Source of the DNA: Candidatus Micropelagos thuwalensis
Lineage (GTDB): Bacteria > Pseudomonadota > Alphaproteobacteria > RS24
Direction: 5' to 3'
Assembly: GCF_000469155.1 (NCBI RefSeq)
Contig: NZ_AWXE01000001.1
Coordinates: 434,001 to 498,000, forward strand
DNA length: 64,000 nt
Shown in pieces: positions 3,895 to 59,011 of this stretch; the first letter of the stretch is position 1; each line of letters opens with the position of its first letter. The notes under the pieces are model-generated. The model had not been told where the DNA came from. It ran no database searches and saw only the letters and a list, made by a program, of their open reading frames with translations. The translations under genes and the position numbers were made by a program.

Positions 3895-4953
3895 TTAAAC
3901 AGTTTGAGCCGAGAATGGGGTGTACTGTAATTTATAGACATGATAAACGCTCAGTGCCAGCACAAATACGGCACCAAGCTGGTGGAGAGCACCCAAATGC
4001 ATTGGAACGGCCTGCATTAAGGTGACAATCCCGAGTACAGCCTGCGCGATCACTCCGAACATCAATAATCCTGCGGTTACGCGGGTGGGCGCGTTTTGTT
4101 TAAACTGCGACCAGAAATGTATGATTACTAAAATTAATAGCAGATAAGCACCGATGCGGTGATCAAATTGGACTGTGAGATGGCTTTCGAAAAAATTATC
4201 CATGACCGGCTGCATATCTAGCAAGCCGGAAGGAATAAGAACACCATCCATGTGCGGCCAATCTGTATAGGTTTTGCCGGCATTCAACCCTGCCACCAAA
4301 GCACCAAGCAAAGATTGCATGAAAACCATGAAAATTAAAAAATATCCGAAATAAATTTGTCTCGATGGTTTTGCTATAGCCTGCGCAGGTTGCAGCAAAC
4401 GTAGAGCCTGCCAGAAAACCAAGCAAAAGATAATAAGGGCAAGCCCCAAATGCATAGCGAGGCGGTATTGGCTAACATCGACGCGGTCTGTCAAACCACT
4501 TTGCACCATATACCACCCCATAAAGCCTTGAAGTCCACCAAGAAAAAATATGCCCGTCAGCGGCAAAAAATTCTTTTTGGCTATAAAACCGCGCATGAGA
4601 AAAAACATAAAAGGAATAAAGAATACAGCGCCGATAACGCGGCCAAGTTGCCGATGCCCCCACTCCCACCAGTAAATATATTTAAATTCTTCAAGACTGA
4701 AATCTTTATTGACCAACTGATATTCTGGAATGGCTTTATATTTATCGAATTCAGACATCCAGTCTGCTTGCGATAAAGGTGGTAATGCGCCCGTCACAGG
4801 CTTCCACTCAGTGATGGACAAACCAGAGTCCGTCAGTCGGGTAAGCCCGCCAACCAAAACCATGAGAATTATCAAACTGGCCACACTGAGAAGCCAGATG
4901 CCTACAGCTCGGTTTTCCTTCGTTACATGATTTTTTGAATACAACATATCCAT
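3895..4953 (-). CDS. ctaA: Heme A synthase (COX15/CtaA type 2)
   Basis: A 352-residue polytopic membrane protein with about eight hydrophobic segments. It converts heme O to heme A for aa3-type cytochrome oxidase. Conserved features are GGLTRLTDSGLSITEW (35-50), the first haem-ligand region WWEWGHRQLGR (His100), MHLGLALIIF, FDHRIGAYLL, and MHLGALHQLGAVFVL near the C-terminus, giving the four expected histidines. The long first periplasmic loop (residues 60-95) is typical of the proteobacterial and mitochondrial COX15 form. It stands alone, facing away from the DUF2842 gene. It implies an aerobic respiratory chain. Confidence 0.96.
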   Translation of the reverse strand: MDMLYSKNHVTKENRAVGIWLLSVASLIILMVLVGGLTRLTDSGLSITEWKPVTGALPPLSQADWMSEFDKYKAIPEYQLVNKDFSLEEFKYIYWWEWGHRQLGRVIGAVFFIPFMFFLMRGFIAKKNFLPLTGIFFLGGLQGFMGWYMVQSGLTDRVDVSQYRLAMHLGLALIIFCLVFWQALRLLQPAQAIAKPSRQIYFGYFLIFMVFMQSLLGALVAGLNAGKTYTDWPHMDGVLIPSGLLDMQPVMDNFFESHLTVQFDHRIGAYLLLILVIIHFWSQFKQNAPTRVTAGLLMFGVIAQAVLGIVTLMQAVPMHLGALHQLGAVFVLALSVYHVYKLQYTPFSAQTV

Positions 4954-5069
4954 GTAACGGATTTAAACCTGTGCTCATATCAGGGCAAGATGAAGACTTG
5001 CGACAAATTAACCAAGCCCATCATGATGTGATGAATTGTCAAAGCTCATCTGTCTGCTATATCAAAAGC

Positions 5070-5074
5070 AGGAG
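5070..5074 (+). promoter_or_regulatory. Ribosome binding site fixing the DUF2842 start
   Basis: AGGAG lies seven bases before the ATG at 5081, which selects this start over the upstream in-frame ATG at 5036. Confidence 0.7.
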
Positions 5075-5080
5075 ATAGAT

Positions 5081-5311
5081 ATGAGATTACCCGTCCGCTT
5101 AAGAAAATTTATTGGCATGTTGTTGTTGCTTATTGTGTTGTTTTTTTACGCCATGATTGTCATGACGATTGCAGTCAGCGGATGGATGCCTGCTAACGGC
5201 TTTATCGAATTTATGTTTTATTTGATAACCGGCCTGGCCTGGACTTTTCCTGCGGGAATTATCATCTGGTGGATGCAAAAACCTGAAAAAACTGACAGGG
5301 ATGTCGCCTAA
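5081..5311 (+). CDS. DUF2842 small membrane protein
   Basis: A 76-residue protein with two predicted transmembrane helices (about residues 9-30 and 38-63), joined by the short loop SGWMPANGF and followed by a polar tail beginning WWMQKPEK. The LRKFIG start, the paired helices and the GLAWTFPAG...WWMQKP end match the DUF2842 family, which is widespread in alphaproteobacteria and has no known function. It lies alone between ctaA and the 26-residue ORF on the other strand. Confidence 0.85.
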   Translation: MRLPVRLRKFIGMLLLLIVLFFYAMIVMTIAVSGWMPANGFIEFMFYLITGLAWTFPAGIIIWWMQKPEKTDRDVA

Positions 5312-5320
5312 TTAATTCTT

Positions 5321-5401
5321 TTAATCAATGCTACCGAACTGAGTAATATTCAGTACGATGATGACAGCAATAAAGATAACAATTGGTAAAATAGAAGACA
5401 T
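5321..5401 (-). CDS. Predicted 26-residue single-span membrane peptide
   Basis: A 27-codon ORF with ATG at 5401 and TAA at 5321. The peptide starts MSSILPIVIF, continues as an uninterrupted hydrophobic helix to about residue 18, and ends NITQFGSID, so it looks like one membrane span with a short polar C-terminus. It lies 73 bp downstream of the ABC-F gene on the same strand. From memory, alphaproteobacteria carry short proteins of this shape ending in an N-x-x-E/Q-F-G-x-x-D motif, but I cannot confirm this without a search. The Shine-Dalgarno is weak (AGGTTGAG). Confidence 0.5.
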   Translation of the reverse strand: MSSILPIVIFIAVIIVLNITQFGSID

Positions 5402-5474
5402 AATACGCGCTCAACCTAAACATTTTTAATCTTGTTTGGGGGTAACATGCGTTGATTTCCTCGGCAAGAACATT

Positions 5475-7298
5475 TTATCCTTCCAACTCTTCGCGCAAGA
5501 TTTCTAGTTCCAACCATTCCGCCTCGGCTTCTGCCAGACGTGTTTCAGCTTTTTCAAGTGCCATCGCGGTTTTGTTGAATAGCTCAGGGTCTTTCGTGAA
5601 AAGCGTGCTGTCGAATAAAAGTTTTTTGCTGTCGGCAATAAGCGTTTCAAGTTCGCGCATTTCACCAGGCAGTTGCTCTAAAGCATATTTTTGCTTGTAG
5701 CTTAATTTGGTAATAGCCTTATGTGTTGGTGGGGGACTTGTCGCGTTTTTGTCTAGATTTTTACCTTCGGGCAATTTATGCGCATCTTTATCACCCCCCA
5801 CATCTCCGGCTTTACGCTGCACCAGCATATCACTATAACCACCGGCATATTCTACCCACTGCCCTTCGCCCTCCGAATTGATTACAGAGGTCACAGTACG
5901 ATCGAGAAAATCTCTATCGTGACTTACAAGAATGACTGTACCCTGATAATCTGCAATCAGTTCTTGAAGCAAATCCAGCGTCTCAAGATCTAAATCATTT
6001 GTTGGCTCATCCATGATTAACACATTAGAAGGATGCCGGAGACCGCGCGCCAGCAAAAGACGCGCCAACTCGCCACCAGATAACACATTGGCAGGTGTCC
6101 GCATTTGAGAAGGATGGAAAAGAAAATCCTTCATATAGCCAATAACGTGCATTTTATCTTCACCAATAGTGACATAGTCCCCTGCCCCATCAGTCAGCGC
6201 ATCCTTAATTGTCCAGTCGCGCTTAATACCTGCCCGTGCCTGATCCAGCACAAGCATTTGAAGGTTTTTTCCAAGACGCACATTGCCGACATCAGGTTCC
6301 AACTCACCAATCAACATATTTAGCATGGTGGTCTTACCCGCCCCATTTGCACCGACGAGACCAACTCTGTCGCCACGCTTAATTTGTGTAGAAAACTGGG
6401 AGACAATTTTTTTATCCCCGAAACTTTTGGCAATCTTATCGGCTTTCACCACAAGCTTACCAGACATATCGGCTTCGCTGACTTGCGCCTTCACATTACC
6501 TGCTGGGCCTTGATGATCCCGGCGCTGTTTTTTTAAAGCCGATAATTCAGCCAGCCGCTTTACATTACGTTTACGCCTGCCTGACACGCCATAGCGCACC
6601 CAATGCTCCTCTCGCTCAATTTTCCTGTCGAGTTTTTGAAGTCGCATAATTTCCAGTTCAATCTCCTGATCCCGCCAATCCTCAAAATGATTGAAACCTT
6701 TTTTAAGCAAGCTTGTCTTTCCTCTATCCAGCCATAATGTTGACTGAGACATATTGCTTAAGAATCTTCGGTCATGGCTAATGAGAACCAGCGCGGAGCG
6801 CAAAGACTTTAGTGCATTTTCTAACCATTCAATCGCCGGCAAATCCAAATGGTTCGTTGGCTCATCTAGCAAAAGAATATCAGGGTCAGGCGCCATGACC
6901 TTTGCCAGCGCCACGCGACGCTTTTCACCGCCCGAGAGATTTTCAAGCCCTTGATCGGAAGACAAACGCAAATCCGCCATAAGTTGAAAGGCACGTTGTT
7001 TGTCTTCATTATCCATGAGTTCTGCCAGCACATATTCGCCAATAGTCGAAGCCCCCTTAAATGTCGGGTCTTGGTCAAGATAGCTGACCATTATTCCTGG
7101 CTGGACAAATCTTTCCCCACTATCAGGCTCAACCATTCCAGCAGCAATTTTAAGAAGTGTCGATTTACCTGAGCCATTTCGCCCGACAACACAAAGTCTC
7201 TCACCCGGTGCGATAGACAAATCTGCCCCTTCAAGAAGCGGCGTCACACCAAAAGTCAGGTTTACATCCTGAAGATATAAAATAGGTGGGCTGGACAT
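5475..7298 (-). CDS. uup: ABC-F family ATPase (Uup-like)
   Basis: A 607-residue soluble protein with two ABC domains in tandem and no membrane segments, hence ABC-F. Domain 1 has Walker A GRNGSGKST (about 40-48), signature LSGGEKRRVALAK and Walker B ILLLDEPTNHLDL. Domain 2 has Walker A GANGAGKTT, signature LSGGELARLLLARGL and Walker B LIMDEPTNDLDL. A charged linker rich in Lys, Arg and Glu joins them, and the last 80 residues form a predicted coiled coil, as in Uup. The family acts on ribosomes or DNA branch structures. ATG at 7298 is preferred over the GTG at 7301. Confidence 0.93.
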   Translation of the reverse strand: MSSPPILYLQDVNLTFGVTPLLEGADLSIAPGERLCVVGRNGSGKSTLLKIAAGMVEPDSGERFVQPGIMVSYLDQDPTFKGASTIGEYVLAELMDNEDKQRAFQLMADLRLSSDQGLENLSGGEKRRVALAKVMAPDPDILLLDEPTNHLDLPAIEWLENALKSLRSALVLISHDRRFLSNMSQSTLWLDRGKTSLLKKGFNHFEDWRDQEIELEIMRLQKLDRKIEREEHWVRYGVSGRRKRNVKRLAELSALKKQRRDHQGPAGNVKAQVSEADMSGKLVVKADKIAKSFGDKKIVSQFSTQIKRGDRVGLVGANGAGKTTMLNMLIGELEPDVGNVRLGKNLQMLVLDQARAGIKRDWTIKDALTDGAGDYVTIGEDKMHVIGYMKDFLFHPSQMRTPANVLSGGELARLLLARGLRHPSNVLIMDEPTNDLDLETLDLLQELIADYQGTVILVSHDRDFLDRTVTSVINSEGEGQWVEYAGGYSDMLVQRKAGDVGGDKDAHKLPEGKNLDKNATSPPPTHKAITKLSYKQKYALEQLPGEMRELETLIADSKKLLFDSTLFTKDPELFNKTAMALEKAETRLAEAEAEWLELEILREELEG

Positions 7299-7497
7299 CA
7301 CGATTTCTCAATTATGCTCGAACATTATGAATGGGCTTCATATCACGTCCTGCCACTCCATCCAATGCAACACAGATACCACAATAATAAATCTGAGTTT
7401 ACTGGGGTGTCTTATGATTGTGCTAGCTCTCAAAATTTGAAATTATGGTCTGTAAATGTTATGTGCCTAACACTTTAATCAAACTGAGTCTTCATCT

Positions 7498-9312
7498 ATG
7501 ACGCAAGAAACAAACCTATCGCTTGGAAATGATTTCCCGGATGCTGATAAAAAAGACTGGTTAGAAGCTGTTGAGAAAGCTCTAAGAGGGGCCGCCTATG
7601 AGACATTGCAGACTCGCCATAATGGATTGAGCAGGGAACCGCTTTATACAAATGAGACAGTTAACTTATCTCAAGCCGCTCATGGAATGCCGGGTCAAGC
7701 GCCCTTTCTTCGGGGCAGTAAATCGCTTTCAAACTCTTTCCTGCCTTGGCATATCGCATCGCGTTTTACCCTAGGGCGTAAAGGTAATGATAATAAAGAT
7801 GTACTCACTGACCTAGAAGGCGGCGTGAGTGCGTTGCTATTGGATTGTCGTTTTGACACAGTAACACCCACCCAACTTGATAAGCTGCTTGAGGGTGTTG
7901 ATATCAATATTGCACCGTTATTTTTGCGCGCAGATGATAATGCGATTAATCTTGCTACTCATCTCGCTAGCAAAATAGGCAATTATAAAGCTATCTTTCT
8001 TGATCTTGATCCGTTGGGCTATGCCGCCGCATCGGGTTTAAAAATTGATGATGATGTCGATACCATCTTCCCCGGAATGTTAGGGCTTGTTGAGCAAACT
8101 CAATCATCCCCGAATATCCGGCTTATGACTGCAAGCGGACTGACATATCATAATGCAGGCGCAGATGCGATAACTGAGCTTGCCGCTATTATCGCAACGG
8201 CAACCTTCTACATGCGTTATCTAGAACAATCAGGTCTTGATATTGCTGATATAATCAACCGCCTGACACTTACGGTCAGCGCTGATACAGATTTTTTTGG
8301 TTCTATCGCCAAGCTACGCGCTCTACGTCTCCTCTGGGGGAATATTTGCGCGGCACTAAAGCAAGATAAAATTGTCACGCCATATATTCACGCCGAAGGC
8401 TCTGAGAGATATTTCTCTCTTGCCGACCCGTGGGTGAATATGTTGCGCGCAACCATGTCCACACTTGCCGCCGGTATTGGGGGAGCAGACGTTGTAACCG
8501 CACTGCCCTGCACATCTATCGCCGAAAGCGATAATCTGCTCACGCGGCGTGTAGCCAGAAACACTCAAGTAATTTTGCAAGAGGAAAGTCATATCGGGCA
8601 AGTTATGGATCCTGCTGGTGGCTCATGGTATGTGGAAACACTATCTGAAGCCCTCGCCTCAAAAAGCTGGTCACTTTTTCAGAGCATCGAAAAAGCAGGC
8701 GGCATTGCCTCCCCTGAAGGTATGAAAATAGTCACCACTAATATTGAAGAAAACCGCATTACTGAAAATAAAGATATAGCAAAACGTAAAATGCCCGTTC
8801 TGGGTGCAGGTGATTTCGCCAATTTGGAGGAAGCTTTGCTTAAGCCGCGCCCAGTATATGGTAGCGGTGCTTTACAAGAAACGCGACCTGCTGAAGCCTT
8901 TGAAAAATTGCGCTTTGCGGCAGAAAACCAAAAACCTAAAATATATCTGGCCGTTCTTGGGGAAACGGCTGAGTTCACCGCCAGATCAAATTTTGCCACA
9001 AATTTATTTGCCGCTGGTGGGATTGAGAGCCATCTTGGCTGTGGTGGCAATGACCTCAATGCGATTATTGATGACTTTACAGCAAGTGGGTTTTCTGTCG
9101 CCGTTATTTGCGGCACGGATGCAGCTTATGAGAACCATGCGGAAACATTGGCACAAGGCCTTGCTGAGGCCGGTTGCGCACATGTATGGTTGGCTGGAAA
9201 ATATGAGTCGGACGCAATTAATGGAAATATTTTTATGGGCTGTGACACCATTTCGGTTTTACAATTGACACTAAGCCTATCAGGGGTTGCCTATGATGAG
9301 GTTCAGTCATGA
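7498..9312 (+). CDS. mutA: Methylmalonyl-CoA mutase small (beta) subunit
   Basis: A 604-residue protein related along its length to the large subunit: an N-terminal TIM-barrel region (from about residue 50; GGSWYVETL near 380) and a C-terminal Rossmann-like domain. The C-terminal domain lacks the DxHxxG cobalamin motif (the equivalent stretch reads [14 protein letters not shown]), as expected for the non-catalytic subunit. With MutB it forms the heterodimer that interconverts methylmalonyl-CoA and succinyl-CoA, feeding propionate, odd-chain fatty acid and branched amino acid carbon into the TCA cycle. Its stop overlaps the mutB start by 4 bp. The 196 bp upstream separates it from the divergent ABC-F gene. 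Confidence 0.95.
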
Positions 9313-57311: not shown

Positions 57312-57899
57312 ATGACAACCGCCTCAACCCGTATTGCTATTTTATTTTCCGGAACGGGGACTAATCTACGCAATCTTGCGGCGCATATAAATGCCGCGCA
57401 TGTCCCCGCCACGCTGGAACTGGCGATTTGTAACCGGCCGGAAGCAAAAGGGCTGGATTTTTGCCGCGATAATAATATCCCGCATGAACTGATAAACCAC
57501 ACGGATTATAGTGACCGCGCTGATTTTGATGCTGCAATGCAAACAGCTTTGCAGGCGGCAGATATCGAACTTATTTGTGCTGCCGGCTTTATGCGCTTGC
57601 TAACACCGGAGTTCGTAAATTACTGGCAAGACCGCATCATAAACATTCACCCATCTCTGCTCCCAGCCTATAAAGGTTTGCACACGCATCGCCGCGTATT
57701 GGAAGCAGGCGAGAACACTCACGGCTGCACGGTGCATCTGATAAGGCCTGAGATGGATGAAGGCCCGATATTGGTACAAAAACAAGTGTACGTTTTTCCC
57801 ACCGATACGGAGGACACGCTCGCAGCCCGGGTAATGGAGCAAGAATTAATCGCCTATCCCGAAGCGTTGGATATTATGTTGTCACGCCTGCGCGGGTGA
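57312..57899 (+). CDS. purN: Phosphoribosylglycinamide formyltransferase
   Basis: A 195-residue enzyme that formylates GAR with 10-formyl-tetrahydrofolate. It has ILFSGTGTNLRNLAAHI, the folate/GAR region AAGFMRLLTPEFVNYWQDRIINIHPSLLPAYKGLHTH with the catalytic Asn-His pair, and ENTHGCTVHLIRPEMDEGPI. Short gap to purM confirms the operon. The 3' flank, 57900-58588, holds structured RNA elements, not genes. Confidence 0.96.
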   Translation: MTTASTRIAILFSGTGTNLRNLAAHINAAHVPATLELAICNRPEAKGLDFCRDNNIPHELINHTDYSDRADFDAAMQTALQAADIELICAAGFMRLLTPEFVNYWQDRIINIHPSLLPAYKGLHTHRRVLEAGENTHGCTVHLIRPEMDEGPILVQKQVYVFPTDTEDTLAARVMEQELIAYPEALDIMLSRLRG

Positions 57900-57978
57900 T
57901 AAGCCATCACCCCACAAATTCGAAGTGTAGCAAGTTATTATCTCCTTTTTTAATGACAATTTCTGATATATTAATCTT

Positions 57979-58087
57979 GCTTGTACGCGGACGGCGTATG
58001 AGTGGGGATTAACACCCTCTGTAACAAGCTGCAATTCATGAAGCGTATGCGGCTTAATGCTCCTTTTGGGACGTTAGGCCTTTTTTT
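57979..58087 (+). ncRNA. Structured RNA element A with strong terminator
   Basis: An outer stem GCTTGT/ACAAGC (57979-57984, 58024-58029) encloses two small hairpins, TACGC-GGACG-GCGTA and GAG-T-GGG...CCC-TC, giving a three-way junction. It is followed by a terminator at 58051-58087: GGCTTAATGCTCC pairs with GGGACGTTAGGCC (13 bp, one mismatch, some G-T), loop TTTT, then seven T. It could be an independent small RNA, the purN 3' UTR, or an RNA cleaved from it. I do not match it to a known family. Confidence 0.5.
58051..58087 (+). terminator. Strong intrinsic terminator ending element A (purMN side)
   Basis: A 13-bp stem with TTTT loop and seven T directly after (58081-58087). It is the first plausible end for transcripts from purMN. 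Confidence 0.8.
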
Positions 58088-58090
58088 ATG

Positions 58091-58223
58091 TTTTGCGCGG
58101 AAAATCCGTTCACTCCGATAAGTCGGGGTGGCGGCGAAATAAGGTTTATGCCGAATACGTCGTAGCCGAATGTTACCGGTTTGTTAATACCCCGGCGCCA
58201 TCTTCTTGATGGTGCCGGTTTTT
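58091..58223 (+). ncRNA. Structured RNA element B ending in a terminator
   Basis: Hairpin CACTCCGA-TAAG-TCGGGGTG (58111-58130, 8 bp with one G-T pair) is followed by weaker pairings and the terminator CCGGCGCCATC-TTCTT-GATGGTGCCGG (58192-58218; 11-bp stem, one G-T pair), then five T. Base composition is more GC-rich than the flanking genes. No ORF of note lies inside. A promoter is not evident in the short space after element A, so it may be a read-through or processed RNA. Confidence 0.5.
58192..58223 (+). terminator. Intrinsic terminator of element B
   Basis: Stem CCGGCGCCATC/GATGGTGCCGG (11 bp), loop TTCTT, then TTTTT. The 3' arm plus tail, GGTGCCGGTTTTT, recurs 147 bases further at 58358. 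Confidence 0.8.
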
Positions 58224-58235
58224 ATTTATGCGTTG

Positions 58236-58372
58236 CCAGCACCGTGTTTACGGGAATAGCCGCTTCACCGTTTCACGACCCATGAAGGGCGCGAAACGGC
58301 TTCGGCGGGGGAAGGCACACTGGGCTTTCCCTGCGGAAAAGCAAGTGTTTATAACCTGGTGCCGGTTTTTTT
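58236..58372 (+). ncRNA. Structured RNA element C with closing stem and T7 tail
   Basis: CCAGCACC at 58236-58243 can pair with GGTGCCGG at 58358-58365 (7 of 8 bp), enclosing two long hairpins: CCGTTTC/GAAACGG at 58268-58299, extended by GCCG/CGGC, and ACACT-GG-GCTTTCC/GGAAAAGC-A-AGTGT at 58317-58348. Seven T follow at 58366-58372. The closed, multi-branch shape with a terminal T-run looks like a stable small RNA of about 140 nt. I cannot match it to 6S, tmRNA, SRP or RNase P RNA by hallmark sequence. Confidence 0.5.
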
Positions 58373-58588
58373 GTGGCAGCAAAAACGAGTTTTGTATCGG
58401 GGGCATGGTCAAATAAAAGAGATTGACGTCAATCAAATACACCATACCGTCCGTGTGTCAGCGTATTGAGAACGGGCGCAAGGCACATGTAAAGGCAGTT
58501 CTACAAGCCAAAAGCGGCGGTGCGCACCCCCGATATACAAAACATCACTTAAAGATTTAAGCAGAGCGATTTAAGTAGCGTTAGTTAA
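58373..58588. other. Non-coding stretch between structured RNAs and ndk
   Basis: It contains the 14-base perfect palindrome GATTGACGTCAATC (58421-58434) and the palindrome GGTGCGCACC (58519-58528). A 45-codon ORF from a TTG at 58423 to a stop at 58560 has no ribosome binding site or recognisable domain. I see no ndk terminator with a clear T-tract on the minus strand. Confidence 0.4.
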
Positions 58589-59011
58589 TTAGCCAACAAT
58601 TTCGTCATCGGAGAAAAAGAACTTAATCTCTTCTGCGGCGGTTTCCGGTGCGTCTGAACCATGCACTGAGTTGGCTTCAATGCTCTCGGCAAAATCCTTA
58701 CGGATTGTCCCCTCATCGGCATCAGCCGGGTTTGTCGCGCCCATAATTTCGCGATTTTTGGCAATGGCATTTTCGCCTTCCAGCACCTGCACAACCACTG
58801 GGCCGGAAATCATGAAAGAAACCAACTCACCAAAAAAAGGACGCTCTTTATGCACAGCGTAAAAACCTTCCGCTTGCTCACGGCTCATGTGAAGTCGTTT
58901 AGAAGCAACCACACGAAGACCATTACTTTCAAAACGGTCAATGATTTTCCCGGTCAGATTACGCTTAGTTGCATCGGGCTTGATGATTGAAAAAGTACGT
59001 TCTAAAGCCAT
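58589..59011 (-). CDS. ndk: Nucleoside diphosphate kinase
   Basis: A 140-residue enzyme of standard length, which equalises NTP pools by phosphohistidine transfer from ATP. It has [58 protein letters not shown], and the active-site histidine in [13 protein letters not shown]. It faces the structured RNA block at its 3' side and holC at its 5' side (136-bp gap). Confidence 0.98.

Follow-up and report, generated by a model that had tools for sequence, protein, structure and literature searches.

Element C, at positions 58236–58372 of the 64-kb window (the whole stretch of DNA analysed here), belongs to a family of short mobile palindromic repeats that had no name before and that lie at gene ends in one group of marine bacteria; the copy had been read from the wrong strand. 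The original prediction was a closed, housekeeping-type RNA; this 'possible housekeeping RNA' is replaced by a well-supported mobile repeat, since C belongs to a dispersed family that is absent from most sister genomes. It is very probable that C, on its minus strand, is a member of a dispersed, mosaic repeat of the RS24-type alphaproteobacterial family in which a conserved palindrome, P, is followed by a second one, Q, and which would serve as a 3'-UTR hairpin at gene ends. The term 'repeat' holds for P across the family and not for this chromosome, in which C is the one copy of P found (150 of 530 candidates scored).

The family was recognized from weak BLAST matches of C in other genera, which have in common a 51-nt palindrome on the minus strand of C (58307–58357), its conserved core. 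Searches for further copies of the whole element gave only those in G001 (IMCC14465, the nearest relative carrying it) and G011, besides the partial matches that led to P. The G011 copy (contig C80, L166), in which C is found with the neighbouring element D at the rpoH/symporter locus, was discounted as evidence from another genus: the contig is probably misbinned because it is 80–90% identical to G001 over its genes, yet the PurN of G011 is only 59% identical to that of the window. A covariance model built from five copies (R1) found, among the matches listed, at least 56 copies in 16 of the 28 genomes of the host family, and its refined version (R2) gave at least 182 matches in 17 of the 28 (per-genome counts summed), with up to 23 in a single genome, all these counts being lower bounds because 150 candidates per genome were scored. 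The R2 matches are concentrated in genus g4; G001 has six of them and the window's genome (G000) a single one. A sequence profile made from 61 copies, with every version of C left out, matches positions 58353–58307 of the minus strand with an E-value of 1.9e-10, which is the sole significant match in the 64 kb. A search of 385 genomes of the class, for which the filters were stricter and 15 candidates were scored in each genome, yielded nothing convincing outside the host family, with three weak matches there. Among these, what was matched in G188 resembles coding sequence, and in G032 it is another palindrome that lacks GCC in its 3' loop. The G032 palindrome (L226, about 1501–1549, and L228) represents a different repeat (TAGAAGCGCTTGATTTGCAAAGCAAAT...AGCGCTTCTTG) of another small-genome family, which matches the P model weakly.

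P consists of about 51 nt, to which Q is added, and folds into a three-tier 16-bp helix. From the outside inwards, the copy in C comprises an outer stem, a TATAA/GCCTT internal loop, a 5-bp stem (ACACT/AGTGT), a 1x2 bulge and an 8-bp stem (GCTTTTCC/GGGAAAGC) closed by a GCA loop. Analysis of 64 distinct copies showed that 96.5% of the pair cells are standard and that all 16 pairs have changes on both sides, although the middle and inner helices belonged to the model that aligned the copies, so that their pair counts lean towards pairing. The covariation score is 0.496, compared with 0.170 +/- 0.010 for shuffled alignments (0 of 500 as high) and at most 0.079 for slid ones. The outer 3-bp stem, which lies outside the search model, still pairs in 93.5% of cells and exchanges GC, CG and AU pairs. 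The internal loop that separates the outer stem from the middle one is nearly invariant, TAWAA facing GCCTT; the G000 copy retains TATAA and GCCTT as well as the paired ACACT/AGTGT, and has a T/C mismatch at one of the three pairs of its outer stem. The 5' flank of P typically reads G(G/C/T)TA(A/T)AAG, and GTAG occurs there sporadically. The view of C as an undescribed structured element thus stands in part: it is absent from Rfam and its inner helices covary strongly, but the reading as a closed housekeeping-type RNA is wrong.

The plus strand had been favoured for C, whereas both measures of strand preference point to the minus strand. On the P strand there are 27 G-U cells against 5 A-C cells, cells that are not phylogenetically independent, and the minus strand of C folds at -61.7 kcal/mol (z -4.75, with none of 200 shuffles as good), better than the plus strand of 58236–58379 (-57.7 kcal/mol vs -48.0 +/- 3.9 for shuffles; z -2.52, with 3 of 200 shuffles as good). 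The G-U excess favours folding of the P strand, which is the minus strand of the window, as RNA or as single-stranded DNA.

Comparison of the sequences downstream of P, together with folding, revealed the second palindrome, Q (GCCGAAGCCGTTTCG...CGTGAAACGGTGAAGCGGC; 58260–58308, minus strand). It is often found downstream of P in the family, in the form AGCGNAG...GAAGTCGG or AAGCGAGG...CCGAGACG. The G001 copy, GCGTAG-hairpin-CGAAGTGG, fits the AGCGNAG-hairpin-GAAGTCGG motif; the G000 copy has diverged.

The copies of P are strikingly placed with respect to genes. Among the 64 copies, 23 start within -21 to +11 of a stop codon on the same strand, whereas copies placed at random in the same loci would give 1.4; 3 show the opposite-strand arrangement. 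In many of these gene-end copies the stop codon lies inside the 5' arm of P, and several further copies start at the 3' end of a tRNA-Ser gene. One orthologous gene compared in 27 genomes illustrates this: in five genomes of genus g4, P follows ...AGA-V and its TAA is the stop codon, and in the others the gene ends without P. A flag for P at this gene in G024 was a false regular-expression match on a terminator. Such filled and empty sites show that P has been gained or lost at a fixed position. Inverted pairs of P are present as well (L210, L209 and L208), as are tandem or inverted copies in L199. At one locus of G008 (L185, 1546–2214; contig C3, about 940.4–941.1 kb), five to six tandem units of 123 bp, each with an inverted P, lie beside a tRNA-Ser gene, an array that reads as local amplification of the repeat.

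These features agree with a spread of P as a small unit, which would move by way of some enzyme or by recombination; a RAYT-type transposase (Y1_Tnp, PF01797) was found in none of the 28 family genomes by a search that did detect its controls. They also bring in the reading that comes closest to the one presented here, namely that P is a neutral DNA repeat of the REP/BIME type whose palindrome is no more than a single-strand or cruciform substrate of the mobilising enzyme and whose transcription is incidental. The inverted pairs and tandem arrays (including L199, L210 and the 123-bp array in L185) and the filled and empty sites all suit this possibility, as does the fact that the usual place of REPs is downstream of genes and that CGTC REPs have no transposase of their own (PMC3733652). 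The excess of sense over opposite orientation at gene ends (23 vs 3) speaks against it, and the excess of G-U pairs on the sense strand suggests that the fold matters, although G-T pairs in single-stranded DNA could also explain the latter. We consider a neutral repeat a serious candidate, with a probability somewhat short of one-half. Selection may thus act on the RNA or solely on single-stranded DNA.

P that has landed at a gene end would be transcribed in the sense direction as a 3'-UTR hairpin, which could supply the stop codon and cap or protect the 3' end. It is possible, though on balance unlikely, that P goes further and is a mobile module for 3' ends that works at the RNA level: inserted at the end of a gene, it would bring with it both a stop codon and a conserved internal loop for a putative protein. 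If so, one RNA-binding protein would control, in the RS24 family, the 3' ends of a wide range of unrelated genes along with the neighbours of tRNA-Ser genes. A same-strand gene end is the tendency of the family rather than a requirement, and the copy in C has no such position. Its site is the gap that separates purN (plus strand, ending at 57899) from ndk (minus strand, ending at 58589), and on the minus strand it is found 231 nt past the ndk stop codon, so that it would be transcribed only by read-through. Probably, C itself does little of its own, and no function is indicated for it.

The features described for C on the plus strand are indeed present: CCAGCACC at 58236–58243 can pair over 8 nt with GGTGCCGG at 58358–58365, two long hairpins lie between them, and seven T follow at 58366–58372. 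The hairpins are real, strongly conserved and fold above chance. The absence of hallmarks of 6S, SRP, RNase P and tmRNA was likewise borne out, as no Rfam 15 family, these four included, reaches its gathering score in the 64-kb window. When matches up to E=10 were considered for the window, C and G001, none fell on C itself and the sole one, to RF02221, was on the neighbouring element B; a search of the window for tRNA and tmRNA genes found none. The closing stem, by contrast, is intact in G000 only. G001 retains the inner hairpins as well as the end GGTGCCGG-T7 but lacks the 5' arm, having TTTCTCGG in place of CCAGCACC, which breaks the stem; thus the pairing that had been proposed to close the RNA exists in the window and is not conserved, and this break counts as the lack of covariation in it that had been named beforehand as grounds for giving up the prediction.

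The origin of the stem and T-run can be traced to a direct repeat. The sequence TGGTGCCGGTTTTT occurs at 58210–58223, as the 3' half of the terminator of B, and again at 58357–58370, as the 3' closing arm and T-run of C, with a match of 14/14, and in G001 a T-rich repeat with 21 of 22 bases in common is found at the same two places, so that direct repeats flank C in both genomes. Because of these matches, a duplication of the end of B's terminator best accounts for the stem and T-run of C, and makes the closed multi-branch fold a side effect of the duplicated arm. There is no support for a closed RNA that ends in a T-run of its own. An independently transcribed, closed multi-branch RNA of the plus strand appears highly improbable: the z-score of the plus-strand fold and the retention of the T-run in G001 are in its favour, but the broken stem, the borrowed 3' arm and T-run, the better fold and G-U asymmetry of the minus strand and the lack of both closing stem and T-run in the other members of the P family all run counter to it, and no promoter-like site was found in front of C on the plus strand.

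C is part of a 684-bp block of four elements, A-B-C-D (57901–58584), which is found between purN and ndk in this genome only. Wherever both genes were found together in relatives, the gap between them measures 6–58 bp and the block is absent; these empty gaps led us to reject a conserved purN-ndk RNA gene. In G001 the block is carried at another locus, by an insert of 3.95 kb that separates rpoH from a sodium/solute symporter gene; the window's genome has about 100 bp at this locus. This insert (L164, about 3950–7900; contig C3 of G001) has the look of a small variable island; it also encodes a DUF4411 and an IrrE/M78-type protein, which are perhaps a toxin-antitoxin pair.

C had been ranked as the strongest candidate in the window for an undescribed RNA, but its neighbours have a better claim to being independent RNAs: A and B, which have terminators, and D. 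Element A (57970–58088, plus strand) is a putative sRNA with a terminator (GGCTTAATGCTCC-TTTT-GGGACGTTAGGCC-T7) and is kept in G001. It lies in front of B and has a -10-like box (TATATT/TATACT) that is also kept in G001, its 12-bp terminator being followed by seven T. Element B (58090–58223, plus strand) is a multicopy RNA that resembles sRNA-Xcc1: RF02221 matches it at 58122–58204 with 35.3 bits, and its terminator spans 58192–58218. The match amounts to 35 bits in both G000 and G001, below the gathering score of 53, and B is well conserved. It has the same closing stem and AATA...GAATA loops as sRNA-Xcc1, whereas C has no match to that family. Further copies of B in G000 are found at C1:227157–227367, C4:65590–65787 and C1:605429–605531; the motif GTCGGGGTGGCGGCGAAATA...GAATACGTCG..GCCG...ACCCCGGC is highly conserved, and the terminator is strong. 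In genomes of g1, several copies of B lie between a gene for a ychF-type GTPase and a small downstream gene (NLWIFRLRRK...). Instead of a trans-acting sRNA, B could be a leader or a riboswitch.

The mobile setting of the block is not surprising, since integron cassettes of Xanthomonas are known to carry sRNA-Xcc1 (PMC12444791). That P is itself an integron-like recombination site, a folded single strand of the attC type linked to the sRNA-Xcc1-like cassette, would fit this travel in cassettes, the folded palindrome at gene 3' ends and the movement of the A-B-C-D block, but is hardly credible, as the R'/R'' core (GTTRRRY/RYYYAAC) is not at fixed positions in the P alignment (judged by eye) and the neighbours of P are chromosomal genes with family-wide orthologues rather than cassettes.

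Element D (58395–58535, plus strand; TATCGGGGG...CCCCCGATA) is a second closed RNA-like element that has an AAATA...AATAC motif in common with B. It is of the GTCGGGG...CCCCGAC type, carries AAATARAACAG...GAATA and has no Rfam match. In other genera, a D-type element follows B after a short spacer with no C between them (L010, L013, L021 and L028), and D is directly downstream of B also at L019 and L029. The B-D tandem looks like a conserved RNA pair. In G000 and G001, C sits between B and D; given that the two adjoin without it in other genera, C looks like an insertion into the B-D pair that took place before these two species split.

Several known repeat systems resemble P and Q. RIME and the rickettsial palindromic elements (RPE) are alphaproteobacterial repeats of about 100–150 bp that contain two palindromes and are located between or within genes. 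P/Q is similar to them in general description, and in the 385 genomes of the class P was not found beyond the host family, apart from the three weak matches. The GTAG-REPs and BIMEs are short dispersed palindromes that form mosaics and inverted pairs, lie mostly downstream of genes and fold into an imperfect, bulged hairpin (PMC2817692, PMC3733652). P is like the GTAG-REP/RAYT systems and BIMEs in all these respects but differs from the former in being longer (about 51 nt plus Q), in its conserved TAWAA/GCCTT internal loop and in having neither the unpaired terminal GTAG tag nor a Y1_Tnp gene in its 28 genomes, which led us to reject an identity with RAYT-associated REPs. The alphaproteobacterial CGTC-REPs, which have an unpaired CGTC tag (or TGTC/CCTC), an 8–9 bp stem, a 4–5 nt loop and a CCA tail, are likewise found downstream of genes, form mosaics, lack a dedicated transposase and are plausibly transcribed (PMC3733652). 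P shares with them the alphaproteobacterial host, the gene-downstream sites, the lack of a dedicated transposase and the plausible transcription, whereas its three-tier 16-bp helix without a terminal tag departs from their tag, stem and loop, and this identity was rejected as well. What makes the P family of interest is the combination of RNA-like covariation with a sense orientation at the stop codons of unrelated genes, the ability to supply the stop codon and a spread without RAYT. It offers a small, testable case of how palindromic repeats spread and serve as 3' ends in streamlined marine bacteria. Thus, P/Q is a REP/BIME-like mosaic repeat, not a housekeeping RNA, and its tags and stem sizes place it outside the GTAG- and CGTC-REP families.
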